The notes under the pieces were generated by a model. It ran no database searches. It was not told the DNA's origin and was given only the letters and a program-made list of their open reading frames with translations. Below, one piece after another: positions 4,045 through 61,118 of a DNA stretch of 64,000 nucleotides. Source of the stretch: Turicibacter bilis (lineage in GTDB: Bacteria; Bacillota_I; Bacilli_A; MOL361; Turicibacteraceae). The position numbers and the translations under genes were made by a program. The DNA lies in contig NZ_CP071249.1 of assembly GCF_024499055.1 (NCBI RefSeq), positions 1,279,001 through 1,343,000 on the forward strand, given 5' to 3'. Position 1 is the first letter of the stretch. Each line of letters opens with the position of its first letter.

Positions 4045-4492
4045 CAAACTCTCCAACTTTCCATTTCAAACTATTTCTAACATATCATTTCGATTCTAAA
4101 TATATCAGCAAATATATTATTGGAATTTATTACATTTCTATATTCAATAATACTTCGATTAAATTATCCTAATTAAGAAATAAATAATCAACCTTTCATA
4201 ATCGTTAGCTATTCTTTAAGTATCTACTTAATTGTAACCTATTCAAAGAGACAGGTCGATATAAAATTCTTTTTTCTATCTATTTTCTGACATAAAAAAT
4301 CGACCACAAACTTTAAGCTATAACATAGCCTAAAATTAATGATCGATATAGACACCTTTATATTATCTGTTAACCTTTAACACCATCTGTACACGTGAAA
4401 AGTTGACAGAATTGAATAATCTAAAAACTTAGAGAGAGTAAAAATCTTATCCATAAGCACGTACTATTACAATCTGTCAATCAGAGAAACTT
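4045..4492. other. Gene-free stretch between ptuA and glmM
   Basis: I see no credible ORF. There is a loose inverted pair GGTCGAT / ATCGACC at about 4254-4303 and an ATCGAT-containing block next to it, which could be insertion-sequence debris. The ptuA promoter must lie here, but no convincing -35/-10 pair stands out. Confidence 0.3.
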
Positions 4493-4523
4493 AAAAAGCA
4501 AAACACCTAAAAGTGGTCTGCTC
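4493..4523 (-). terminator. Terminator after glmM
   Basis: On the minus strand an imperfect stem GCAGACCAC / GGTGTTTTGC with a short loop is followed by TTTTT, 17 bases past the glmM stop. Confidence 0.55.
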
Positions 4524-4539
4524 CTTAATATCCACTCAA

Positions 4540-4881
4540 CTAAGCTAACTCTTTTTCAACGACTTCTAATAAACGACTCACGTAGCTTTCACATAATTTT
4601 TCTGTTTGTGCTTCGACCATGACACGAACGAGTGGTTCTGTTCCAGATGGACGAACTAAGACTCGACCTTTACCGTTCATTTCGGCTTCAATGTTTACGA
4701 TTTCTTCTAAAATCTTAACATTCGTCATCATGGCCATTTTATCTTCTACACGTAAGTTTTTCAGTAATTGAGGGTACTTCGGCATTTCTTTTGCAAGCTC
4801 AGCTAATGATTGCCCTTTTTCAACCACGATGTTTGCTAATTGCACGGCACTTAACATTCCATCTCCTGTTGTTCCATGATC
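4540..4881 (-). pseudogene. glmM: glmM segment 7 (C-terminal domain)
   Basis: Encodes DHGTTGDGMLSAVQ... to the stop: 113 residues with the phosphate-binding loop RPSGTEPLVRVMVE. An internal ATG at 4857 could be called as a 105-residue ORF, but there is no ribosome site and the homology continues upstream to the family B element at 4882. Confidence 0.85.
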
Positions 4882-5002
4882 TGTTATGAGTAGATCAATA
4901 TTTTACATTCTACACATCATGATTAAACACTTCATTCCTTTTAAATGAAGACTAACTATAGAATCCGTAACATTTTTGTTCCAAAAATGACGGATACTAA
5001 CA
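4882..5002 (-). repeat. Family B interrupting element, copy B2 (121 nt)
   Basis: Splits ATC TTC TTA | GAT CAT GGA (HLIFL-DHGT) precisely between codons. On the minus strand it begins TGTTAG and ends ATAACA. A 5' hairpin pairs AG-ATCCGT with ACGGAT-CT and ATTTTT with AAAAAT. The rest holds weaker hairpins CTTCATT/AATGAAG and GTAGA/TCTAC. The second codon read into the element is TAG. Confidence 0.85.
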
Positions 5003-5041
5003 TAAGAAGATTAAGTGTCCTGATTGTTCTCCACCAAAGTT

Positions 5042-5099
5042 ACACCACATGGGTGTCAAGTTGTTCTAATTTTCATCTAGTGAAAATAGAACAACTATG
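5042..5099 (-). repeat. Family A interrupting element, copy A4 (58 nt)
   Basis: Splits GGC TAT | AAC TTT (GNGY-NFGG) at a codon boundary. Hairpin 1 is AGTTGTTCTA / TAGAACAACT with inner stem TTTTC/GAAAA; hairpin 2 is ACACC-catgt-GGTGT. It has the best-paired stems of the four copies. Confidence 0.88.
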
Positions 5100-5123
5100 A
5101 TAGCCATTACCTAACATTTCTTC

Positions 5124-5247
5124 TGTTTTAAATAATGTTTGGATTTTTATATAATCTTCATCAGAAATAAACACTATCTCTTCTGTTAACTAAACCAACT
5201 ATAGTCGCAGTAAAATTTTCGTTCCACAAAAATTACGGCGACTAACA
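5124..5247 (-). repeat. Family B interrupting element, copy B1 (124 nt)
   Basis: Splits TAT GTG TTA | GAA GAA ATG (RYVL-EEM). It begins TGTTAG and ends AAAACA. The 5' hairpin pairs AGTCGC with GCGACT and GTAA with TTAC; a later stem CAGAA/TTTCTG is less certain. Only a 24-nt coding island separates it from A4. Confidence 0.85.
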
Positions 5248-5313
5248 TAACACATAACGGTCTCCAACTTTTGTTTGAACACTCTGTAATCCATGCGCTT
5301 CAACAGCATTGTA

Positions 5314-5371
5314 GCACCGCAAGGGTATCAAGTTATTCTAGCTTTCATAAAACGAAAGTAGAATAGCTATG
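5314..5371 (-). repeat. Family A interrupting element, copy A3 (58 nt)
   Basis: Splits TTA GGA TTT | TAC AAT GCT (LGF-YNA). Hairpin 1 is AGCTATTCTA / TAGAATAACT with inner stem CTTTC/GAAAG; hairpin 2 is ACC-cttgc-GGT. A TGA falls in frame within the element. Confidence 0.88.
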
Positions 5372-5530
5372 AAATCCTAAGTTACTCATCACGGTTGAAA
5401 CAACTGTTCCATGATTCAATAACCCTTTTTCATTTAAGTAACGCCCGACAATGAACATGATGTAATCTCCATCGATGATGGCTCCTGTATGATCAACCGC
5501 AATTAAACGGTCAGCATCGCCATCAAAAGC

Positions 5531-5588
5531 GCACCACAAGGGCATCAAGTTGTTCTAGCCTTCATACAGTAAAGGCAGAACAGCTATG
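5531..5588 (-). repeat. Family A interrupting element, copy A2 (58 nt)
   Basis: Splits TTA GGA TTT | GCT TTT GAT (LGF-AFDGD), just before the metal-binding DGDADR loop. Hairpin 1 is AGCTGTTCTG / TAGAACAACT with inner stem CCTT/AAGG; hairpin 2 is GCC-cttgt-GGT. The coding context TTAGGATTT is the same as for A3. Confidence 0.88.
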
Positions 5589-5748
5589 AAATCCTAAATG
5601 CGCTTCCTGCTTCACAACTTCCGTAGCTAACATTTCTGGATGAGTTGATCCACATGATTCATTAATATTAACTCCATCTGGTTGATGATAAATACTAACG
5701 ACTTCTGCGCCTAAGTCTTTAAATAGCTGAGGAGCTAATGTGGAACTT

Positions 5749-5806
5749 GCACCGAAAGGCACTAAGTTATTCTAGACACTCTCTTTGTTCGTGTAGAATA
5801 GCTATT
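5749..5806 (-). repeat. Family A interrupting element, copy A1 (58 nt)
   Basis: Splits GGG GC | A AGT TCC (NGA-SS), the only family A copy inside a codon. It is the most divergent copy: outer stem AGCTATTCTA / TAGAATAACT, inner stem CAC/GTG, hairpin 2 TGCC/GGT. It is still exactly 58 nt long. Confidence 0.85.
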
Positions 5807-6354
5807 GCCCCATTGGCACAATCTAAGACAACTTTTAATCCTGTTAATTTGTTAGAAATCGTCGTTTCTAAATGTTCAACGTATTCTTTAGCACCTAGAT
5901 GATAGTCTTCGACACGACCGATTTCGCCTCCAACTGGGCGTGGTAATTCATCCATCACATCCAGTAAAGCTTCAATTTCTTCTTCCTGGGCATCACTTAA
6001 TTTATACCCATTATGACTAAAGATTTTGATTCCGTTATCTTGCACAGGGTTATGTGAGGCAGAAATCATGATTCCAGCTTGAACATCTAAGTTTTTCGTT
6101 AAATAAGCCACTCCCGGTGTTGTAATGACACCAAGTTTTAACACATCAACTCCTGATGAAATCAGACCAGCCATTAAGGCCGACTCTAACATTTCACCTG
6201 AAATACGAGTATCTCGCCCAATCAATACTTTCGGACGTTCACATAAACTTTTTAATTGATACCCTAAAATACGTCCTAACTTTAAAGTGAATTCAGGTGT
6301 TAACTCTGTATTGGCAACACCACGAACTCCATCTGTTCCAAAATATTTTCCCAT
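5807..6354 (-). pseudogene. glmM: glmM segment 1 (N-terminal half)
   Basis: [12 protein letters not shown] starts at an ATG 37 bp after the glmS stop, with AGGAT about seven bases upstream. It carries the catalytic serine loop SASHNP and runs to VVLDCANG before element A1. Read without removing A1, translation ends 12 residues later. Confidence 0.85.
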
Positions 6355-6391
6355 ATCTTTATCCTCTATCCTTTTAATCTATCTAATTCTA

Positions 6392-7363
6392 CTATTCCAC
6401 CGTCACTGACTTCGCTAAGTTACGTGGTTTATCGATATCGAATCCACGATGTAACGCTGCATAGTAAGAAATTAATTGAGTTGGAACTACTGTTACTAAT
6501 GGTGTTAATAATGGATGAACATCATCAATCACAATTTGATCCGTTTCAGAACTTAATGAACGTAATGAAATAATCACAGTATTAGCTCCACGCGCTTTAA
6601 CTTCTTTTACATTTGAACGTGTATTTAAATTCACTGATTCTTGAGAAACAATCGCAATCACTGGTGTTCCTTTTTCAATTAAGGCAATCGTTCCATGCTT
6701 TAACTCACCAGCTGCGAATCCTTCTGTTTGAATATAAGAAATTTCTTTTAATTTTAACGCCGCTTCTAAGGCCACATAGTAATCCACATGGCGCCCGATA
6801 TAGAAACAGTTACGTTGTGTTAAATAATCTTTCGCAATGGCATCGTATTGCTCTTTATGGTCTGTAATACTTTCCATCACATTAGCAACGATCGCTAATT
6901 CACGAGATAAATCTAAATCTGTTTTTCCAGCCACTTTAGCTGCTAAAACGGCTTGAACCGCAACTTGAGCTGTGTAAGCTTTTGTTGAAGCTACTGCAAT
7001 CTCAGGTCCTGCATATAATAATAACGTGTGATCCGCTTCACGAGATAACGTTAAACCTGGTACGTTTGTAATCGTTAATGATGGATATCCTAATTGTTTA
7101 ATTTTAACTAATACGGCACGGCTATCTGCGGTTTCTCCTGATTGAGAAATGAAGATGAATAATGGTTTTTTACTAATCACTGGTGTATTATAAACGAACT
7201 CTGATGAAATGTGAACTTCAGTTGGAATTCCAGCTAATTGTTCAAACATTTGCTTTCCAACGAATCCAGCATGCATACTCGTTCCTGCTGCAATGATATA
7301 TAAACGATCCGCTTCCTTCACGGCCTTCACGATTTCTTGATCAATTTTAATGTCCCCATCTTC
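6392..7363 (-). pseudogene. glmS: glmS segment 3 (sugar isomerase domains)
   Basis: Starts [24 protein letters not shown] and covers both SIS domains to the stop. An ATG-like codon at 7330 would give a 312-residue ORF, but homology continues upstream to GAA at 7363, where the frame joins ...RRIVEQYF of segment 2. Confidence 0.8.
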
Positions 7364-7451
7364 GAAGTGTTTATAGTATTCTAATAATTAACAGGGATGC
7401 ATTTGAAAAGTTAACATCTCTTTTGTAAAATTATCCATATCAACTAGAGAT

Positions 7452-9035
7452 ATGGAGGAGATAGGAGTGCTAACTTTGGAGAAGAAAGAAAAAATGATTC
7501 GTTTATATCTAAAAGGTCTATCTTATACCGACATTGCTAAAGAGATAGGAATGACTCGACAAACGGTTAGTAAATATATTAAGCAATATGAGAAGGATCA
7601 ACAAGAATTAGAATTAGCTACGACCGCTGAAGAAAAAGAACAGATTATTATCCGTTCATCTGCTAAGCCTAAGTACGATAGTAGTAAACGTCAACGTATT
7701 AAATTAACACCTGATGTTGAGTCAATGATTGATTCTTGCTTAGAAGAAAATAAACAAAAGATTCAACAGGGGAAACGGAAACTCATCATGAAAAATACAG
7801 ATATTTATGAATGGCTGATTTCGAAAAATATTGATATTAGCTATCGTTCAGTTTGTGCTTATGTTTCTAAACAAGCCCAACGTTCAAAAGAGGCATTTAT
7901 TAGGCAAGTTTATGAGCCTGGACAAGTGGCTGAATTTGATTGGGGAGATGTTACTCTTTATATTGAGGAATTGGGTGCTGAGCGACGATTTAAAATTGGA
8001 GTGTTTGACTTAAAATATAGTGATAAGAGATTTGCTTACCTTTATTCACATGAAAATACGGAAGCTTTTCTTGATATTCACACTCGCTTCTTTGAAGAAA
8101 TCAAAGGGGTTCCGACTGAAATCGTCTATGACAATGCACGTGTTCAAGTGAAACATCTAGCTGGTAGAGAAAAACAACCCACTGAGGTGGTTAAAAAATT
8201 AATGAATTATTACGGTTATATTCCCCGATACACCAATCCTTACAGTGGTCATGAAAAAGGTCATGTGGAGCGTTCTGTTGAATTAATTCGACGAAAAGCT
8301 TATAGTAAGTCTCACCATTTCAAAACAATTGCAGATGCTGTTACTGCACTTTTAGAAGCAACTCACCGTGAAAATCAAAAAATAAAACAACGAACGAACC
8401 AATCTGCAGAAACTGTATTTGCACAAGAACAGAAGAATTTACTTCCATATAGGTTACCCTTGGATACTTATTTAACCTCTACCTATAAAGTGAATAAATA
8501 TAGTTTTATTCATGTCGATTCCAATTTTTATTCTGTTCCGGATTACTTAGTAGGAAAAGAGGTGACTGTCCGTAAAAACATTAACCAGATTAAAGTTTAT
8601 TTCGATGATCGATTTTTATTTAAGGCTAACCGATTAATCGGACGTCACCAATATCATATAGATATTCATCACTATTTAGCGACATTAAAAAAGAAGCCCG
8701 GGGCAATTGCGCATAGCTTGGCTCTCAAACAAGCTACTCCCTGGCTTCAAAACATATTCCAAACTTATTATAACACAAATCCACGAGACTTTATCTATCT
8801 ATTAACAATAATTGAGCAGAACTCTCTTGAAACGGTTCAGTTTGCGATTGAATCTTTAAAACGACAAGGGTTACCGATTCAAAATCATCACATCATCAAT
8901 TACTTATTGAATTTAAACCCTAGTCAGTTCAATACCAAAGATTTAATTGAAGCCCCTATTGAACAAGCTTGTTATCATCAATTATCTGAAATTAGTTCAA
9001 TGTATAGTCAAGGAGAAAACTCATGGATCAATTAA
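7452..9035 (+). CDS. istA: IS21 transposase IstA
   Basis: A 527-residue transposase. The N-terminal helix-turn-helix is MIRLYLKGLSYTDIAKEIGM...TVSKYI (residues about 14-45). The DDE catalytic core has D in VAEFDWGDVTLYIEE, D in EIVYDNARVQ and E in GHEKGHVERSVELIRR. A C-terminal beta domain follows (YSVPDYLVGKEVTVRK). It carries out strand cleavage and transfer with IstB. The ATG at 7452 has a short upstream space (GAGATATGG); an in-frame start near 7470 is possible. It overlaps istB by 13 nt, the normal IS21 arrangement. Confidence 0.95.
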   Translation: MEEIGVLTLEKKEKMIRLYLKGLSYTDIAKEIGMTRQTVSKYIKQYEKDQQELELATTAEEKEQIIIRSSAKPKYDSSKRQRIKLTPDVESMIDSCLEENKQKIQQGKRKLIMKNTDIYEWLISKNIDISYRSVCAYVSKQAQRSKEAFIRQVYEPGQVAEFDWGDVTLYIEELGAERRFKIGVFDLKYSDKRFAYLYSHENTEAFLDIHTRFFEEIKGVPTEIVYDNARVQVKHLAGREKQPTEVVKKLMNYYGYIPRYTNPYSGHEKGHVERSVELIRRKAYSKSHHFKTIADAVTALLEATHRENQKIKQRTNQSAETVFAQEQKNLLPYRLPLDTYLTSTYKVNKYSFIHVDSNFYSVPDYLVGKEVTVRKNINQIKVYFDDRFLFKANRLIGRHQYHIDIHHYLATLKKKPGAIAHSLALKQATPWLQNIFQTYYNTNPRDFIYLLTIIEQNSLETVQFAIESLKRQGLPIQNHHIINYLLNLNPSQFNTKDLIEAPIEQACYHQLSEISSMYSQGENSWIN

Positions 9036-9775
9036 TTAAAACTTACACCAAACATTTACGCTTACCTTATATTCATCAAAATTTGTCTTTTCATTTAGAA
9101 CAAGCTCGGTTAGAAAATCAATCCTATGAAGAGTTCTTACTGAATCTTTTTCAATATGAGGTTGAACTTAGACAACAGAATGGGGTTAATACGCGTATAA
9201 GAGCTGCTAAATTTCCATATCTAAAACATTTAGAGGAATTAGAGGTCGCTGCTTTACCATTAGAGGCTCAAAAACATTATCAAACATTAAAAAGCTTAGA
9301 ATTTATTGAAAAGAAACAAAATGTCATACTAGCAGGTAACCCTGGAACTGGTAAAAGTCATACGGTCATTGGACTTGGAATTAAAGCCTGTCAAGCTGGA
9401 TATCATGTGTATTTTGCGCATGTTCCGACTTTAATTATTGAGTTAAAAGAAGCAAAAAATGAACGTGTCCTACAACGTTTAAAAAAGAAGTTTGATAAAT
9501 ATCATCTCGTTATTTTAGATGAGCTTGGTTATATCTCGTTTGATAAAGAAGGCGCAGAGCTGCTCTTTAACTTTATCTCTACTCGATGTGAAAAAGCATC
9601 AACAATGTTTACGACTAACTTGCCCTTTTCAAGATGGAATGAAATCTTCCATGATCCGATTATCACAGCGGCCATGGTTGATCGCATTACCCATCAATCT
9701 TATGTGATTAACATGAATGGAACAAGCTATCGTCTACAACAATCAAAAAAATTCTTAGAAAATCATGAAAGTTAA
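9023..9775 (+). CDS. istB: IS21 ATP-binding helper IstB
   Basis: 250 residues of the IstB/DnaA-like AAA+ family: Walker A GNPGTGKSH at about 107, Walker B HLVILDELGYIS, sensor STMFTTNLPFSRW. IstB loads on target DNA and recruits IstA. AAGGAG in the end of istA precedes the ATG. Its length and motifs look fully functional, so the element should be active. Confidence 0.95.
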   Translation: MDQLIKTYTKHLRLPYIHQNLSFHLEQARLENQSYEEFLLNLFQYEVELRQQNGVNTRIRAAKFPYLKHLEELEVAALPLEAQKHYQTLKSLEFIEKKQNVILAGNPGTGKSHTVIGLGIKACQAGYHVYFAHVPTLIIELKEAKNERVLQRLKKKFDKYHLVILDELGYISFDKEGAELLFNFISTRCEKASTMFTTNLPFSRWNEIFHDPIITAAMVDRITHQSYVINMNGTSYRLQQSKKFLENHES

Positions 9776-9819
9776 AAATTAAATTTCAATTAAGTTAACT
9801 TTTCACTTGCAATATACAC

Positions 9820-10224
9820 GAAGTATTGCTCCACGATACGACGAATCACGTAAGGTTGCTCATCAATTTCTTTTAACATGTAGTGAGGATATGTTCCCTT
9901 TTCGATATCAGAAGCATCTAACTCAGCTGTGAATGGATCACGTTTAACTGTCACTCCTAATAAGTTATAGATCGTTACCCCTTCACGTGTTAACTTAATG
10001 AACTCTTCATCTTCGATTTCAACGAATTGATTGGTACATTGTAACATGGCCATCGCATCAGATCCAATCATATTGAACCCGTCACCTAAACCAATTAACA
10101 TGGGTGATTTATTTTTAGCTGCATATAGCACTTCAGGATTATTAGCATCAATAACTCCCAATGCATAAGAACCGTGTAATAAACTCATCACATGACGAAT
10201 CGCTAATTCCACATCTTCTTTTTC
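9820..10224 (-). pseudogene. glmS: glmS segment 2 (end of glutaminase domain and linker)
   Basis: [26 protein letters not shown] to [15 protein letters not shown]. It retains the conserved LHGSYA and [13 protein letters not shown] motifs. It is bounded by element B3 on one side and the IS21-containing insert on the other. Confidence 0.8.
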
Positions 10225-10344
10225 TGTTTTAAGAAACAAACTAACACTGTGATTCTATATCAAATTGTAAACAAAAAAACGTTATTAATTTATATAGACT
10301 ATAGACTCAGTAAAATTTTCTATCGAAAATTACTGAGTCTAACA
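10225..10344 (-). repeat. Family B interrupting element, copy B3 (120 nt) in glmS
   Basis: Splits TTT GTG TTA | GAA AAA GAA (HFVL-EKE). It begins TGTTAG and ends AAAACA. The 5' hairpin pairs AGACTCAGTA perfectly with TACTGAGTCT and TTTTC with GAAAA. The GTGTTA before the insert is identical to that before B1 in glmM. Confidence 0.85.
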
Positions 10345-10752
10345 TAACACAAAGTGCTCAATTAATGCTGCAATAACTTCTGTATCTGTATCTGAAATGA
10401 AGTTGTAATTTGGCAAGAATTCTTGGCGTAATTCTAACTCATTTTCAATAACCCCATTGTGAACAATCGTAAAACGACCTGTACTTGATTGATGAGGGTG
10501 TGAGTTACGTTGATTTGGTGCTCCATGAGTTGCCCTACGTGTATGTCCAATTCCTACTGTTGATAAAACAGATTCATCAACAACAGTACGTAAGTGAGCA
10601 ATACGCCCTTTATCCTTAAAAATATGAACTCCTGCTTCATTCACAACAGCGATCCCTGCTGAATCATATCCACGGTACTCTAATTTTTCTAATCCATTTA
10701 ATAAAATATCTTTAACATCTTGCCCACCAATATATCCAACAATACCACACAT
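10345..10752 (-). pseudogene. glmS: glmS segment 1 (glutaminase domain)
   Basis: [15 protein letters not shown]... to IEHFVL, with the Cys2 nucleophile, HTRRATHG and NGVIEN of class II amidotransferases. The start at 10752 has AGGAGAG eight to nine bases upstream. Without removal of B3, translation stops two codons after L136. No glmS-ribozyme-like core is evident in the 190-bp leader. Confidence 0.85.
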
Positions 10753-10943
10753 AAATAAATCTCTCCTGTTTTATTACGTACTGTAATTCCTATCTTATTT
10801 TCTGAAAAAGAAACAAGAACTTTATTTAAAACTCTTGCTCTTTGGTTATTCATAAACTTGTAATATATTCTAATGCCCACAATTTCTCTATTCAAAGTTT
10901 CTTTATCCTAAATTTTAGTTCATTTTATATGCTTAATACCTCT

Positions 10944-14841: not shown

Positions 14842-15238
14842 TTTATTCCCCTCACTCTTCTTATCTCTAAATATTTAAATCAACAAATACTATTAAAGTA
14901 TATATATACATGGCGAAATATAATTCATGGTTTTTCTATATTCCATCTATAACAAGAAAATTTTAGAAAGAACTTATATCAAAACATTCTCTATGTTAAG
15001 ATTCCTGTTCAAATTATGTTAAAAACTTTTGGCCTTATATATAGGTGTCGATATGTTTTTCATATCGTAAAAAATTTTAATTGGGCTATAGGAGGCCTTA
15101 CTACTAAATTATTTTGATAACTAATCCCACTGATAAAAACGTAAAATACATTTAGTTCCTAATTTAATATTTCTCACTACTTTAACTGAATAAAATTTTC
15201 AAAAAAAGTTTCATTGACTTTTTCTAAAGTATAAGAGA

Positions 15239-36071: not shown

Positions 36072-36911
36072 TTAAATTAGATCAAGATAATTCTTTAATG
36101 CCTCTTTCCAAGTAGGTAACAAGCTAAATCCATTAGCTTTTAACTTTGCTTTACTCATACGACTATTCATTGGGCGTTTTGCTGCTGTTGGATATTGATC
36201 CGTTGTAATTGGATTTGTTTTTACTTCAATCCCACTTTGTTTGAAAATTTCATTCGCAAATTCATACCATGAACAAGTTCCTTCATTTGTCGCATGATAG
36301 ATGCCATATTTATCTGTTTCCATCATATCGACTAATAATGGTGCTAAATCGGCTGTATACGTTGGTGATCCGATTTGATCGTTGATGATATTTAATTTAT
36401 CACGTTCTGAACCTAAACGACGCATCGTTTTGATGAAGTTGTTTCCGTTCACACCGAAGACCCATGAAATACGAACGATATAGTACTTTTCTAATAAGCC
36501 TTGAACGTATTGTTCCCCTTTTAATTTACTTGCACCATATACATTGATTGGATTAGGAAGATCTGTTTCCACATACTCTCCCTCTTTTGTCCCATTAAAC
36601 ACATAATCAGTACTGATATAAATTAATTTGACATCTAGTTCTTTGGCACATTCTGAAATGACTTTCACTGATTCAGCATTGATTTGGTAACAAGTCTCTA
36701 CTTCTTCCTCAGCTTTATCTACTGCTGTATAAGCTGCACAATGAATGATGGCTTCTGGTTTTAACTCCATAATAAACGTTCTAATTGCGGCATTATCCAT
36801 TAAATCCATTTCATCACGGTCAACCCCAATCGGTTGATGTCCACGTTTTTCTAATTCTTTTACCACATCATAGCCTAATTGACCTTTAACTCCAGTTACT
36901 AATACTTTCAT
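36072..36911 (-). CDS. rfbD: dTDP-4-dehydrorhamnose reductase (copy 1)
   Basis: 279 residues, SDR fold: VLVTGVKGQLGYDVVKELEKRG, IHCAAYTAVDKAEEE and the YxxxK motif in VYGASKLKGEQYV; TDYVFNGTKEG is family-typical. It performs the last step to dTDP-L-rhamnose. The start overlaps the rfbB stop by one base (TAATG type). It is nearly identical to the gene at 57801, with scattered substitutions. Confidence 0.95.
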   Translation of the reverse strand: MKVLVTGVKGQLGYDVVKELEKRGHQPIGVDRDEMDLMDNAAIRTFIMELKPEAIIHCAAYTAVDKAEEEVETCYQINAESVKVISECAKELDVKLIYISTDYVFNGTKEGEYVETDLPNPINVYGASKLKGEQYVQGLLEKYYIVRISWVFGVNGNNFIKTMRRLGSERDKLNIINDQIGSPTYTADLAPLLVDMMETDKYGIYHATNEGTCSWYEFANEIFKQSGIEVKTNPITTDQYPTAAKRPMNSRMSKAKLKANGFSLLPTWKEALKNYLDLI

Positions 36912-37939
36912 TATTTATCACCGTATTGTTTTTCAAAATAGTTTTGGTATTCTCCTGAGATGATATTTTCCCACCATTGTTTATTGTCTAAATACCACTC
37001 AATCGTTTGTTGGATTCCTGTATCAAAGTTATACGTTGGTTTCCATCCTAATTCAGTTTCTAATTTTTGTGGGTCAATCGCATAGCGTAAATCATGTCCA
37101 GGACGATCTTTCACGTAAGTAATTAATGATTCTGGTTTGTTTAAGGCTTTTAAAATGGTTTTAACGACCTCTAAATTGGTACGTTCGTTGTGTCCACCGA
37201 CGTTGTAAACTTCACCAATTTTACCTTTATGTAAAATTAAGTCGATGGCTGCACAGTGGTCATACACGTGTAACCAATCACGAACATTCTCTCCATTTCC
37301 GTAAACCGGTAATTGCTCATCATTTAACGCACGTGAAATCATTAATGGAATTAATTTTTCTGGAAAATGGTATGGTCCGTAGTTATTTGAACAACGAGAA
37401 ATCGTGATTGGCAATCCAAATGTACGGTGGTAAGCGAAGACTAATAAGTCAGCTGATGCCTTTGACGCTGAATATGGGCTTGAGGTGTGTAATGGTGTTT
37501 CTTCTGTAAAGAATAAATCTGGACGATTTAATGGTAAATCTCCATATACTTCGTCTGTTGACACTTGGTGATAACGTTCTACGCCATAAGCACGAGATGC
37601 ATCCATTAACACTTGTGTTCCTAATACATTCGTTTTAATGAAGATTTCTGGATCTGTTACTGAACGGTCGACGTGAGATTCTGCCGCGAAGTTAACGACG
37701 ATATCGAACTTTTCTTTTTCGAATAAATCGAAGATAAAGTCACGATCGGCGATATCTCCTTTAACGAATTTGTAGTTTGGTTTCCCTTCAACTGGTTGGC
37801 ATGTTTCTAAGTTTCCTGCGTAAGTTAACGCATCTAAATTCACAATCATGTAGTTTGGGTATTTATCTACCATGTAATGAACAAAGTTTCCACCGATAAA
37901 TCCGGCTCCACCTGTCACTAAAATCTTTTTATCCATCAT
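36911..37939 (-). CDS. rfbB: dTDP-glucose 4,6-dehydratase (copy 1)
   Basis: 342 residues. NAD site ILVTGGAGFIGGNFVHYM, FAAESHVDRSV, STDEVYGDL (Thr-Asp-Glu catalytic set) and YSASKASADLL (YxxxK). It acts second in the rhamnose pathway. ATG overlaps the rfbC stop. The protein differs from the copy at 58640 at only a few positions (for example D versus N in RDFIFxLF). Confidence 0.96.
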   Translation of the reverse strand: MMDKKILVTGGAGFIGGNFVHYMVDKYPNYMIVNLDALTYAGNLETCQPVEGKPNYKFVKGDIADRDFIFDLFEKEKFDIVVNFAAESHVDRSVTDPEIFIKTNVLGTQVLMDASRAYGVERYHQVSTDEVYGDLPLNRPDLFFTEETPLHTSSPYSASKASADLLVFAYHRTFGLPITISRCSNNYGPYHFPEKLIPLMISRALNDEQLPVYGNGENVRDWLHVYDHCAAIDLILHKGKIGEVYNVGGHNERTNLEVVKTILKALNKPESLITYVKDRPGHDLRYAIDPQKLETELGWKPTYNFDTGIQQTIEWYLDNKQWWENIISGEYQNYFEKQYGDK

Positions 37940-38520
37940 TACTTGCTCTCTCCTTCATAGACAAACGGTAAATCAGTTAATTCTTTTAATGTCTTTTGTT
38001 TTTTATCTTTTTCTGATAATAAAATGTCTCCTAGTCCTTCTAAAGGCCATTCAATGGCAACATCTTCATCATTCCACAGTAGCCCACTATCATATTCTGG
38101 CGCATAGAAGTCCGTACATTTATAGTTAAACACAGCTTCCTCTGATGTCACCACAAATCCATGAGCAAATCCCTCTGGTACATAGAACTGGCGTTTATTT
38201 TCAGCACTTAAGTAAACACCTTCCCATTGTCCATAAGTCGGAGATCCTTTACGTAAATCCACCGCTACGTCCCATACTTCTCCTTGAGTAACACGTACTA
38301 ATTTTCCTTGCGTGTGTTTCGTTTGGAAGTGTAAGCCACGTAGCACACCTTTGCGAGATTTTGATTCGTTATCTTGAACGAATGTCATCGTTAATCCTGC
38401 TTCAGCGAAGTCTTTTTGGCTGTAACTTTCCATAAAGTATCCACGATCGTCACCAAATACTTTCGGTTCAATAATATATAAGTCTGGAATTTTAGTCGCA
38501 ATAAAATTAAAGTTTCCCAT
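37939..38520 (-). CDS. rfbC: dTDP-4-dehydrorhamnose 3,5-epimerase (copy 1)
   Basis: 193 residues, cupin fold: PKVFGDDRGYFMESYSQ, SRKGVLRGLHFQ (catalytic His), VAVDLRKGSPTYGQW, YVPEGFAHGFVV and VFNYKCTDFYAPEYDSG (Tyr). It performs the third step. It shares one base with both neighbours, showing a compact operon. It carries somewhat more changes from copy 2 near the C-terminus (GLGDI versus GIEEL). Confidence 0.95.
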   Translation of the reverse strand: MGNFNFIATKIPDLYIIEPKVFGDDRGYFMESYSQKDFAEAGLTMTFVQDNESKSRKGVLRGLHFQTKHTQGKLVRVTQGEVWDVAVDLRKGSPTYGQWEGVYLSAENKRQFYVPEGFAHGFVVTSEEAVFNYKCTDFYAPEYDSGLLWNDEDVAIEWPLEGLGDILLSEKDKKQKTLKELTDLPFVYEGESK

Positions 38521-39389
38521 TAAATCACCTCATTTGCGATTTTCACTAAGTATTGTCCATATTCTGTCTTCAATAATGGCTGTGCTAATTCTAATAATTG
38601 TTCTTTTGAAATGTAACCTTTACGATACGCAATTTCTTCTAAACATGAGACATATAACCCTTGACGTGTTTGAACCGCTTCAACATAATTCGCTGCATCT
38701 AATAATCCACGGTGAGTTCCTGTATCAAGCCAAGCCATTCCACGTCCGAATAATTCGACTTTTAATTTTCCACGACGTAAATATTCATTATTAATATCAG
38801 TAATTTCTAGCTCACCACGTGGAGAAGGTTTGATATTTTTGGCGATTTCAACAACCTCATTATCATAGAAATATAAGCCTGGAACCGCATAATTTGACTT
38901 AGGTTGTACAGGTTTTTCTTCAATGGATAATACGTTGAAATCTTGATCAAACTCAACCACTCCAAATGCACTTGGATCACTGACGTGATATCCAAAAATC
39001 GTTGATTCCTCGCGTTCAACTGCTTTTTGAAGGCGCTCCGAAAATCCATAACCATGGAAGATGTTATCACCTAAAACTAAAGCTACTTTATCATTACCAA
39101 TGAACTCTTCTCCAATAATAAATGCTTCGGCTAATCCATTTGGTTGTTCTTGAACTTTATATTCAATTGTTAATCCTAAATGGGATCCATCTCCTAATAA
39201 TTCCTGAAATAACGTAATATCTCGTGGTGTTGAAATGATTAAAATATCTTGAATCCCTGCCAACATTAAGACTGATAATGGATAATAAATCATTGGTTTA
39301 TCGTAAATTGGTAATGCTTGTTTTGAAACAGATTTAGTGATTGGATATAAACGTGTGCCTGACCCACCTGCTAAGATTATACCTTTCAT
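38520..39389 (-). CDS. rfbA: Glucose-1-phosphate thymidylyltransferase (copy 1)
   Basis: 289 residues: [61 protein letters not shown]. It makes dTDP-glucose, the first step. I start at 39389 because AAAGGATG lies eight bases upstream and copy 2 starts at the same codon; an ATG three codons earlier overlaps that ribosome site. It is first in operon rfbACBD. Confidence 0.95.
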
Positions 39390-39722
39390 ATCTTTCATCC
39401 TTTCGAATCTTTCTTTATTATTAAGCCTTATTTTGTAATATTTATAATTTAACAGTATTTGAACTTATTCATAATGATAAATACTTGATTAATAATATAT
39501 TGAAAACAGAAACTAACTATATCAAGGCTTATGTTTTCCTTTATATGAAATTTGAGTTAATAATAAAAATTTATGTTTTTTTATATAAGTAGTGGTTCTT
39601 AAAAAGATTCATATTAATTACTAATCTAAATGTTAGGTAATTTAAAACTACTAGATGTTTAAGTCTTTCAAGAAAACATCAATACTTTCTAAAAAAAGTT
39701 AAACTTACTAATTATATACTCG
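39390..39722. other. Intergenic region upstream of rfbACBD copy 1
   Basis: Very AT-rich, with no ORF. It must hold the rfbA promoter, but no -35/-10 pair is convincing. It ends the similarity to the copy 2 operon. Confidence 0.3.
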
Positions 39723-57800: not shown

Positions 57801-58640
57801 TTAAATTAATTTAAGATAATGAGCTAATGCCTCTTGCCATGTTGGTAATAAGTTAAATCCATTAGCTTTTAACTTTGCTTTACTCATACGACTATTCATC
57901 GGGCGTTTCGCTGCTGTTGGATATTGATCCGTGGTAATTGGATTTGTTTTGACTTCAATCCCACTTTGTTTAAAGATTTCATTCGCAAATTCATACCATG
58001 AGCATGTTTCTTCATTCGTCGCATGATAGATGCCATATTTATCGGTCTCCATCATATCGACTAATAAGGGTGCTAAATCGGCTGTATACGTTGGTGATCC
58101 GACTTGATCGTTGATGATATTTAGTTCATCACGTTCTGATCCTAAACGACGCATCGTTTTGATGAAGTTGTTTCCGTTCACACCGAAGACCCATGAAATA
58201 CGAACAATATAGTATTTTTCTAATAAGGTTTGAACGTATTGTTCCCCTTTTAATTTACTTGCACCGTATACGTTGATTGGATTAGGAAGATCAGTTTCCA
58301 CATACTCTCCCTCTTTTGTTCCATCAAAAACATAATCCGTACTAATATAGATTAATTTGACATCTAGTTCTTTGGCACATTCTGAAATGACTTTGACTGC
58401 TTCAGCATTAATTTGGTAACAAGTCTCTACCTCTTCTTCAGCTTTATCTACCGCTGTATAAGCGGCACAGTGAATGATAGCCTCTGGTTTTAAGTTCATG
58501 ATAAAGGTACGAATCGCTTCATTATCCATTAAGTCCATTTCATCACGGTCAACCCCAATGGGCTGATGACCGCGTTTTTCTAAATCTTTAACAACGTCAT
58601 ATCCTAATTGACCTTTAACTCCTGTGACTAGTACTTTCAT
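57801..58640 (-). CDS. rfbD: dTDP-4-dehydrorhamnose reductase (copy 2)
   Basis: 279 residues. Same motifs as copy 1 (GVKGQLGYDVVKDLEKRG, TDYVFDGTKEG, YGASKLKGEQYV). It differs at scattered positions, for example VFDGT where copy 1 has VFNGT; most family members have D there. It ends operon 2, and glycosyltransferases follow. Confidence 0.95.
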   Translation of the reverse strand: MKVLVTGVKGQLGYDVVKDLEKRGHQPIGVDRDEMDLMDNEAIRTFIMNLKPEAIIHCAAYTAVDKAEEEVETCYQINAEAVKVISECAKELDVKLIYISTDYVFDGTKEGEYVETDLPNPINVYGASKLKGEQYVQTLLEKYYIVRISWVFGVNGNNFIKTMRRLGSERDELNIINDQVGSPTYTADLAPLLVDMMETDKYGIYHATNEETCSWYEFANEIFKQSGIEVKTNPITTDQYPTAAKRPMNSRMSKAKLKANGFNLLPTWQEALAHYLKLI

Positions 58641-59668
58641 TAGCGATCACCATATTGTTTTTCAAAGTAGTTTTGGTATTCTCCTGAGATGATATTTTCC
58701 CACCATTGTTTATTGTCTAAATACCACTCAATCGTTTGTTGGATCCCTGTATCGAAGTTATACGTTGGTTTCCATCCTAATTCATTTTCTAATTTTTGTG
58801 GGTCAATCGCATAACGTAAGTCATGTCCTGGGCGATCTTTCACGTAAGTAATTAATGATTCAGGCTTATTTAAGGCTTTTAAGATGGTTTTAACAACTTC
58901 TAAGTTGGTACGTTCGTTGTGTCCACCAACGTTGTAAACTTCTCCAACTTTACCCTTGTGTAAAATTAAGTCGATGGCTGCACAGTGATCATACACGTGT
59001 AACCAGTCACGAACGTTCTCTCCATTTCCGTAAACCGGTAATTGCTCATCATTTAATGCACGTGAAATCATTAATGGAATTAATTTTTCTGGGAAATGGT
59101 AAGGTCCATAGTTATTTGAACAACGAGAAATCGTGATTGGTAATCCAAATGTACGGTGGTAAGCGAAAACTAATAAGTCAGCTGATGCCTTTGAAGCTGA
59201 GTATGGACTTGATGTGTGTAATGGTGTTTCTTCTGTGAAGAATAAATCTGGGCGATCTAACGGTAAGTCTCCGTATACTTCGTCTGTTGACACTTGGTGA
59301 TAACGTTCTACGCCATAAGCACGAGACGCATCCATTAACACTTGTGTTCCTAAGACATTGGTTTTGATGAAGATTTCTGGATCTGTCACTGAACGGTCTA
59401 CGTGAGATTCTGCCGCAAAGTTCACGACGATATCGAACTTTTCTTTTTCGAATAAATTGAAGATAAAGTCACGATCGGCGATATCTCCTTTAACGAATTT
59501 GTAGTTTGGTTTCCCTTCAACTGGTTGACATGTTTCTAAGTTTCCTGCGTAAGTTAACGCATCTAAATTAACAATCATATAGTTTGGGTATTTATCTACC
59601 ATGTAATGAACAAAGTTTCCACCGATAAATCCGGCTCCACCTGTCACTAAAATCTTTTTATCCATCAT
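58640..59668 (-). CDS. rfbB: dTDP-glucose 4,6-dehydratase (copy 2)
   Basis: 342 residues with all catalytic features of copy 1 (STDEVYGDL, YSASKASADLL). Only a handful of residues differ. Many synonymous third-base differences show that the two operons have diverged for some time rather than being a fresh duplication. Confidence 0.95.
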   Translation of the reverse strand: MMDKKILVTGGAGFIGGNFVHYMVDKYPNYMIVNLDALTYAGNLETCQPVEGKPNYKFVKGDIADRDFIFNLFEKEKFDIVVNFAAESHVDRSVTDPEIFIKTNVLGTQVLMDASRAYGVERYHQVSTDEVYGDLPLDRPDLFFTEETPLHTSSPYSASKASADLLVFAYHRTFGLPITISRCSNNYGPYHFPEKLIPLMISRALNDEQLPVYGNGENVRDWLHVYDHCAAIDLILHKGKVGEVYNVGGHNERTNLEVVKTILKALNKPESLITYVKDRPGHDLRYAIDPQKLENELGWKPTYNFDTGIQQTIEWYLDNKQWWENIISGEYQNYFEKQYGDR

Positions 59669-60249
59669 TACTTGCTCTCTCCTTCATAGACAAACGGTAA
59701 ATCTGTTAATTCTTTTAATGTCTTTTGTTTTTTATCTTTTTCTGATAATAAAAGTTCCTCAATTCCTTCTAATGGCCATTCAATCGCTACGTCAACATCA
59801 TTCCAAAGTAACCCGCTATCGTATTCTGGAGCATAGAAGTCCGTACATTTATAGTTAAATACCGCTTCATCAGATGTCACGACAAATCCATGAGCGAATC
59901 CTTCTGGCACATAGAATTGGCGTTTATTTTCAGCACTTAAGTAAACACCTTCCCATTGTCCATACGTTGGAGATCCCTTACGTAAGTCAACGGCAACATC
60001 CCATACTTCACCTTGAGTGACACGTACTAATTTTCCTTGCGTGTGTTTCGTTTGGAAGTGTAGCCCACGTAAAACACCTTTACGCGATTTTGATTCGTTA
60101 TCTTGAACGAACGTCATCGTTAAGCCTGCTTCAGCGAAGTCTTTTTGGCTGTAACTTTCCATAAAATAACCACGCTCATCTCCGAATACTTTTGGTTCAA
60201 TAATATATAAATCTGGAATTTTAGTTGCGATAAAATTAAAGTTTCCCAT
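59668..60249 (-). CDS. rfbC: dTDP-4-dehydrorhamnose 3,5-epimerase (copy 2)
   Basis: 193 residues. VFGDERGYFMESYSQ, GVLRGLHFQ, PEGFAHGFVV and YKCTDFYAPEYDSG are intact. The region around residues 160-170 differs most from copy 1. It overlaps both neighbours by one base. Confidence 0.95.
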   Translation of the reverse strand: MGNFNFIATKIPDLYIIEPKVFGDERGYFMESYSQKDFAEAGLTMTFVQDNESKSRKGVLRGLHFQTKHTQGKLVRVTQGEVWDVAVDLRKGSPTYGQWEGVYLSAENKRQFYVPEGFAHGFVVTSDEAVFNYKCTDFYAPEYDSGLLWNDVDVAIEWPLEGIEELLLSEKDKKQKTLKELTDLPFVYEGESK

Positions 60250-61118
60250 TAAATCACCTCATTTGCGATTTTCACTAAGTATTGTCCGTATTCTGTTTTC
60301 AATAATGGCTGTGCCAATTCTAACAATTGTGCTTTTGAAATGTAACCTTTACGATATGCAATTTCTTCTAAACATGAGACATATAACCCTTGACGTGTTT
60401 GAACCGCCTCAACATAATTCGCTGCATCTAATAATCCACGGTGAGTTCCTGTGTCAAGCCAAGCCATTCCACGTCCGAATAATTCGACTTTTAATTTTCC
60501 ACGACGTAAATATTCATTATTAATATCTGTGATTTCTAACTCACCACGTGGAGACGGCTGAATATTTTTCGCGATTTCAACCACATCGTTATCGTAAAAA
60601 TATAACCCTGGAACTGCATAATTTGATTTAGGTTCTGCTGGTTTTTCTTCAATCGATAACACATTGAAGTCTTGGTCAAATTCAACGACTCCAAACGCTG
60701 TTGGATCACTCACATGATAACCAAAGATAGTTGATTCTTCACGTTCAACTGCTTTTTGAAGACGTTCTGTGAATCCATATCCATGGAAAATATTATCTCC
60801 TAAAACTAAAGCAACTTTATCATCTCCGATAAATTCTTCTCCAATGATGAACGCCTCTGCTAGTCCATTTGGTTGATCTTGAATTTTGTATTCAATATTT
60901 AATCCTAAATGAGCCCCATCTTCTAACAATTCTTGGAATAATGTAATATCACGTGGTGTTGAGATGATTAAAATATCTTTAATTCCTGCTAACATTAACA
61001 CTGATAATGGATAGTAAATCATTGGTTTATCGTAGATTGGCAACGCTTGTTTTGAAACTGATTTCGTAATTGGGTATAGGCGTGTTCCCGATCCGCCTGC
61101 TAATATAATCCCTTTCAT
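60249..61118 (-). CDS. rfbA: Glucose-1-phosphate thymidylyltransferase (copy 2)
   Basis: 289 residues starting [23 protein letters not shown]; its ATG confirms the start chosen for copy 1. It follows the large GT2 gene by one base (stop 61120), so operon 2 is cotranscribed with that gene, unlike copy 1, which has its own upstream gap. Confidence 0.95.

Follow-up and report, generated by a model that had tools for sequence, protein, structure and literature searches.

Translational bypassing, known from gene 60 of phage T4 and from the byps of yeast mitochondria, of which there are several per gene, requires the ribosome to re-pair. IS200/IS605 elements are single-strand transposons that leave DNA precisely and have non-autonomous derivatives. 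The BOX repeats of Streptococcus pneumoniae have the plan boxA-boxB(n)-boxC, and the available passages of their description state that they nest in one another, sometimes disrupt genes and pseudogenes, and are said to make target duplications (PMC3049150). A group I intron of Turicibacter is mentioned in the available part of an IStron survey (PMC4227781); it is a different kind of element from the inserts described below.

The window analysed here, the whole 64,000-nt stretch of Turicibacter DNA, contains a second glmS-glmM pair in which both genes are interrupted (Table 1). The islands of glmM measure 548, 160, 159, 66, 24, 39 and 342 nt, and a TIGR01455 glmM match lies in the first of them. 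Recomputed from these seven islands, the removal of all six inserts leaves 1338 nt in a single frame, 445 codons and a stop, as the first-pass annotation had claimed. Its coordinates for the inserts were also right, apart from some sliding of the junctions: the boundary of e1 can be moved by -2 to +2 and those of e4, e5 and e6 by 1 nt, whilst e2 and e3 are fixed. In every case (6/6) the insert contains the first in-frame stop. Every insert can be placed between codons (phase 0), and all seven inserts of glmM and glmS lie on one strand, in the sense orientation (7/7, P 0.016). The phase-0 placing is only weakly surprising: apart from e2 and e3 the junctions have room to slide, and at TTAGA one phase is ruled out by the TAG that it would place in frame. 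A length rule was considered and rejected: the length of each glmM insert leaves a remainder of 1 on division by 3 (6/6), yet the glmS insert is 120 nt.

Table 1. Interrupted glmM and glmS genes, their inserts and a dispersed relative in the window.
Feature	Position	Strand	Remark
Second glmM copy, six inserts	4540..6354	-	seven islands together give a complete 445-aa phosphoglucosamine mutase
e1, type A, 58 nt	5749..5806	-	junction ambiguous by -2 to +2; GCAA on either side
e2, type A, 58 nt	5531..5588	-	
e3, type A, 58 nt	5314..5371	-	
e4, type B, 124 nt	5124..5247	-	site TTA^GAA
e5, type A, 58 nt	5042..5099	-	
e6, type B, 121 nt	4882..5002	-	site TTA^GAT
Second glmS, three pieces (10752-10345, 10224-9819, 7367-6392)	6392..10752	-	93-98% DNA identity to chromosomal glmS
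Type B element in glmS, 120 nt	10225..10344	-	TTA^GAA; the genome's intact glmS shows the empty site
IS21-family insertion in glmS	7368..9818	+	istA 7452-9035, istB 9023-9775; ends TGT...ACA
Dispersed type B relative	15038..15156	+	outside any ORF of at least 80 aa

An intact 445-aa GlmM is encoded elsewhere in the same genome (G000:C1:2003009-2004340), downstream of cdaA and one further ORF, with glmS next to it. The position behind cdaA is, we assume, the usual place of glmM. The first-pass annotation had named an intact copy elsewhere among the findings that would make the window gene a pseudogene, and a genome search has now supplied it. The joined window protein and the intact GlmM are identical at 365 of 445 positions (82%) in a gap-free alignment, and the window protein is about equally distant (79-82% identity) from GlmM of all five members of the genus. 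The gene order is glmS then glmM in the window and glmM then glmS on the chromosome. One glmM over the cut-off was found per genome in all five genomes of the genus (5/5, with G002 being 85% complete in 140 contigs), and the interrupted second copy was found in this genome only. A search of named genomes, which may leave out the genus itself, gave 587 GlmM relatives (top identity 64%); the best 80 were all encoded in an uninterrupted single frame (80/80). The phage and plasmid collections contained partial matches of 60-80% identity, annotated, where at all, as glmM or phosphoglucosamine mutase; the phage records among them gave three short matches, one of 35 nt at 97%, and a search of the phage collection in the 'near' mode gave no match. 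In what we take to be the metal-binding loop, the chromosomal GlmM reads DGDCDR (L111:6953-8347) and the window copy DGDADR.

The partner gene glmS is broken as well, by a B-type insert and the IS21 element, and it carries a W-to-R change (TRRATHG vs TRWATHG in the intact copy, presumably a conserved GlmS motif). With its ends read by eye, the IS21 insertion has CGAAG on either side (7363-7367 and 9819-9823), a target duplication of 5 bp. The flanks of the B insert match the intact glmS, which reads straight through, and comparison with this empty site shows that the target was duplicated by at most one ambiguous base.

The three type B inserts (e4, e6 and that in glmS; 120-124 nt) share the insertion site TTA^GA (3/3) and show compensated changes at 5 of 19 pairs. 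At E up to 0.1, a model of B, in searches that score part of the first-look candidates in each genome, found further weak matches: 10 in the same genome, 7 in G001, 1 in G004 and one each in two genomes from other families of the class. Thirteen of these matches form one family with the glmM and glmS copies; across the 16 sequences, some nearly identical, compensated changes occur at 9 of 15 stem pairs. When 16 of 18 matches were checked against stop-to-stop frames, which are not curated genes, none lay within an ORF of 90 aa (0/16) and 7 overlapped an ORF edge. One of these seven, in L149, shares 104 nt with a frame of 108 aa that has no known identity. In a 480-kb sample of the genome, the B profile at E up to 1 returned 30 matches, of which 26 are dispersed and the others are the 3 known inserts and e4 read on its opposite strand. 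None of the 26 lies within a gene (0/26); one is inside a 190-aa frame, but ahead of its first likely start. A loose B pattern matched viral contigs eight times, yet none of these continues as B (0/8, best E 1.8), and the B consensus was absent from the viral contigs. Another of the 26 dispersed matches, a B element of the TTATGTTAG kind at L185:6797-6851, runs into a C-like module and ends a 227-aa frame, supplying its last residues and stop codon.

In several B copies the hairpin is split, near one point, by a further type of module, C, which is 45-55 nt long and occurs 1 to 9 times in a row. In the 480-kb sample, type C was also found within IS66 and ISL3 transposase genes. For ISL3, the empty site exists in G004 and G003, and G001 has a C element at the same point; the insert has GGGTCA at both ends, which may be part of the module or a target duplication. 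For IS66, L193 was tried as an empty site and rejected, as part of the element is still present there and the reading frame fails to close (by eye). Since C is found within B copies and within IS66 and ISL3 genes, short structured repeats of the genus insert at the DNA level into dispensable genes and into one another. Comparison of a B/C array with the phage collection gave no match. Tandem C arrays of 3 to 9 modules of ~45-55 nt were observed at L187:5690-6139, L184:1362-1502, L182:14823-14956 and L112:6686-6926; three of these four are joined to B parts, and copy number varies. A further ISL3 copy, at G000:C1:1907904-1909997, is split by ~1.8 kb within ~20 nt of the point at which C sits in another copy.

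In plan, these repeats resemble the BOX elements as described in the passages available: both are short, tightly folding and modular, with two end modules and variable internal modules, and the A, B and C repeats also nest and interrupt genes (PMC3049150). Type B is dispersed, mostly intergenic, shorter than 200 nt and conserved in fold, with 1-9 C modules between its 5′ and 3′ parts. By the same measure type A has only three good matches beyond glmM, all in G004. The B element in glmS, in contrast to BOX, lacks a target duplication, and the same passages report no gene with six inserts (PMC3049150). Among the type A inserts, e1 is flanked by a 4-nt repeat, and e2 and e3 have none.

The intact glmM, the broken glmS and the insertion of B and C into dispensable sites together support, at a probability of roughly 0.74, a redundant second glmS-glmM pair that very recently became unneeded and was then hit repeatedly by mobile repeats and IS21. 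The need for the pair would have been lost very recently, after which structured non-coding repeats endemic to the genus (A and B, of BOX-like build) would have inserted repeatedly, as would IS21. The inserts would inactivate glmM and probably came as a burst. Their uniform orientation suggests that they entered a single exposed strand of DNA, perhaps in the course of horizontal transfer or of replication. Insertion would be the work of some enzyme, although none that moves A or B was found in this analysis. If this reading is true, the locus captures a gene so soon after its loss of function that each insert still lifts out exactly. It would also expose a modular repeat system of the genus, of which no description was found in the literature on Turicibacter repeats, BOX, in-gene miniature elements or bypass elements.

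The type A inserts (e1, e2, e3 and e5) consist of a long hairpin, slightly bulged on its 3′ side, followed by a short hairpin, and the four glmM copies show compensated changes at 4 of 19 pairs. A covariance model of A, for which 150 of 1014 candidates in the same genome were scored, recovered the four glmM copies, three of them also on the opposite strand, and five matches of 14-18 bits. No further A match was found in the 480-kb sample at E up to 2. Two loci were set aside: L015, maybe a distant A copy in the same genome (16 bits, E 3.4), was left out of the counts, and L013 looks like chance. The exact type A pattern was absent from the viral contigs. A search of 395 genomes of the class at E up to 0.0005, with strict filters and a small number of candidates scored in each, gave A matches only in this genome and in G004, a sister species of the same genus. 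Two stretches of G004 contain three A-like elements (39.9, 29.0 and 26.7 bits), one with all stem pairs shown intact; the surroundings of two of them are without an evident gene (three frames, by eye). Model matches at G004 1176027, 1176254 and 1176481 belong to a 227-nt tandem repeat that was judged unrelated by eye.

A burst therefore has no visible source in this genome, close A copies being found nowhere else in it (150/1014 candidates scored; 480 kb). The same observation would fit a glmM copy imported ready-made from an unsampled relative full of type A, in which the burst occurred, as would the near-equal distance of the window glmM from all five members of the genus and the reversal of gene order relative to the chromosomal glmM-glmS. 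However, the adjoining glmS is closely identical at the DNA level to the glmS of its own genome and contains a B element of the same kind. The restriction of A matches to this genome and G004 in the strictly filtered search of 395 genomes also argues against such an import, which we consider unlikely.

A second alternative is that the inserts leave the DNA precisely, in the manner of IS200/IS605, so that part of the population would have a working gene and inactivation would be reversible. Hairpins with a 3′-side bulge, a B insertion in glmS lacking a target duplication and inserts confined to one strand all recall IS200/IS605, and Y1 transposase genes are present in the genome (5 matches). 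Folded as single-stranded DNA, six of the seven elements, the glmS one included, stand out from their shuffled versions, of which just 0-3 in 200 did as well or better (z -2.9 to -6.7), e1 being unremarkable (76/200 equal or better, z -0.28). However, six excisions would be needed within the same molecule, no matching autonomous element was found, and neither inspection of one element by eye nor profiles at Y1 loci revealed ends shared with a Y1-transposase element. A scan of 10 of the 14 Y1 loci for type A showed no A-like element near the Y1 genes; a scan of all 14 for B and C gave matches that lie 280 bases or more away from the transposase match and have the look of ordinary dispersed copies. 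Moreover, G004 has A-like elements yet no Y1 match. Precise excision is thus a very unlikely account. Elsewhere, G003:C1 carries seven Y1 transposase genes of identical score, which probably belong to an IS200-like element active in that species.

Between the window glmM and its paralogue dN is 0.13 and dS about 1.1, and dN/dS is at most 0.26 in six of seven islands and 0.35 in the 8-codon island. Since the chromosomal glmM copies of the genus differ from each other at dN 0.03-0.06, the window copy has evolved less tightly than they have. That the gene contains no other lesion, a point of the first-pass annotation, holds under a stricter test: of the 122 residues that never vary among the other 87 GlmM sequences, none is changed in the window copy. 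At the 97% conservation level the window copy differs at 2 of 162 residues vs 0 of 162 in the five chromosomal genus copies, and at the 90% level at 12 of 223 vs 14-15 of 224-226. On a rough bound that takes each transition as 4x as likely as each transversion, with 0-10% indels, the gene has received at most about 9-14 neutral substitutions (about 1% drift) since selection stopped, with no stop and no indel.

Against the B and C density of the 480-kb sample, 0.09 inserts would be expected in glmM where six are found (Poisson, P 8e-10); against that of the adjacent 20 kb, 0.54 would be expected (P 2e-5). These tests pool B and C, use hand-rounded cluster counts (for B and C respectively, 20 and 13 in the 480 kb and 4 and 4 in L177) and ignore possible attraction of inserts by inserts. 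With this excess and the bias to one strand, the ordinary rate of decay does not explain glmM, and either a burst or tolerated inserts must be invoked. An insert density so far above that of the surroundings, reached within ~9-14 substitutions, is a point against the burst.

Tolerance would be explained if the inserts were removed from the RNA or skipped by the ribosome: GlmM would still be made, and harmless inserts would accumulate and diverge whilst selection acted on the islands. The clustering would then need no burst. The unchanged invariant residues, the islands without stop or indel, the low dN/dS in all seven of them, the sense orientation and between-codon placing of all inserts, and the two-hairpin structure with compensated changes are what this account would lead one to expect. 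In addition, the inserts resemble those of T4 gene 60 and the byps in being short and structured and in restoring the frame on removal. Nevertheless, an intact glmM exists in the genome, and the glmS partner is cut by an IS21 element that removal of small inserts could not repair. The avoidance of open frames by the B family elsewhere argues against routine removal, since removed inserts would not need to avoid them. Unlike in bypassing, take-off and landing codons are mismatched at six of the seven inserts. The take-off codon equals the triplet before resumption only at e1, which has two phase-0 placings: one gives the match (GCA/GCA, by eye), the other GGG/GGT. The remaining six inserts give TTT/TGC twice, TAT/TGT once and TTA/ACA three times. 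No Rfam model reached its gathering score in the window, which therefore holds no intron of a family represented there; this includes the covariance models of group I and group II self-splicing introns. At E up to 5, positions 4400-10900 gave five weak Rfam matches to unrelated families, none credible.

As judged from sequence, routine splicing or ribosome skipping is thus argued against and removal seems unlikely; we hold it highly improbable that GlmM is still made in this way. The broader proposition that the A and B hairpins in glmM are removable inserts of a new kind, whether spliced, excised or bypassed, and are tolerated six to a bacterial protein gene, is given the least credence of all, though if true it would mean that bacterial genes can be interrupted in a new way. 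The first-pass annotation had left a choice between removal or skipping and very recent arrival. Recent arrival is favoured, and removal or skipping is made unlikely by the intact glmM, the IS21-cut glmS, the avoidance of frames by B and the unmatched codons. Outside the pair, the window also contains two four-ORF blocks, at 36072-39398 (279, 342, 193 and 292 aa) and 57801-61118 (279, 342, 193 and 289 aa), perhaps a duplicated gene set.
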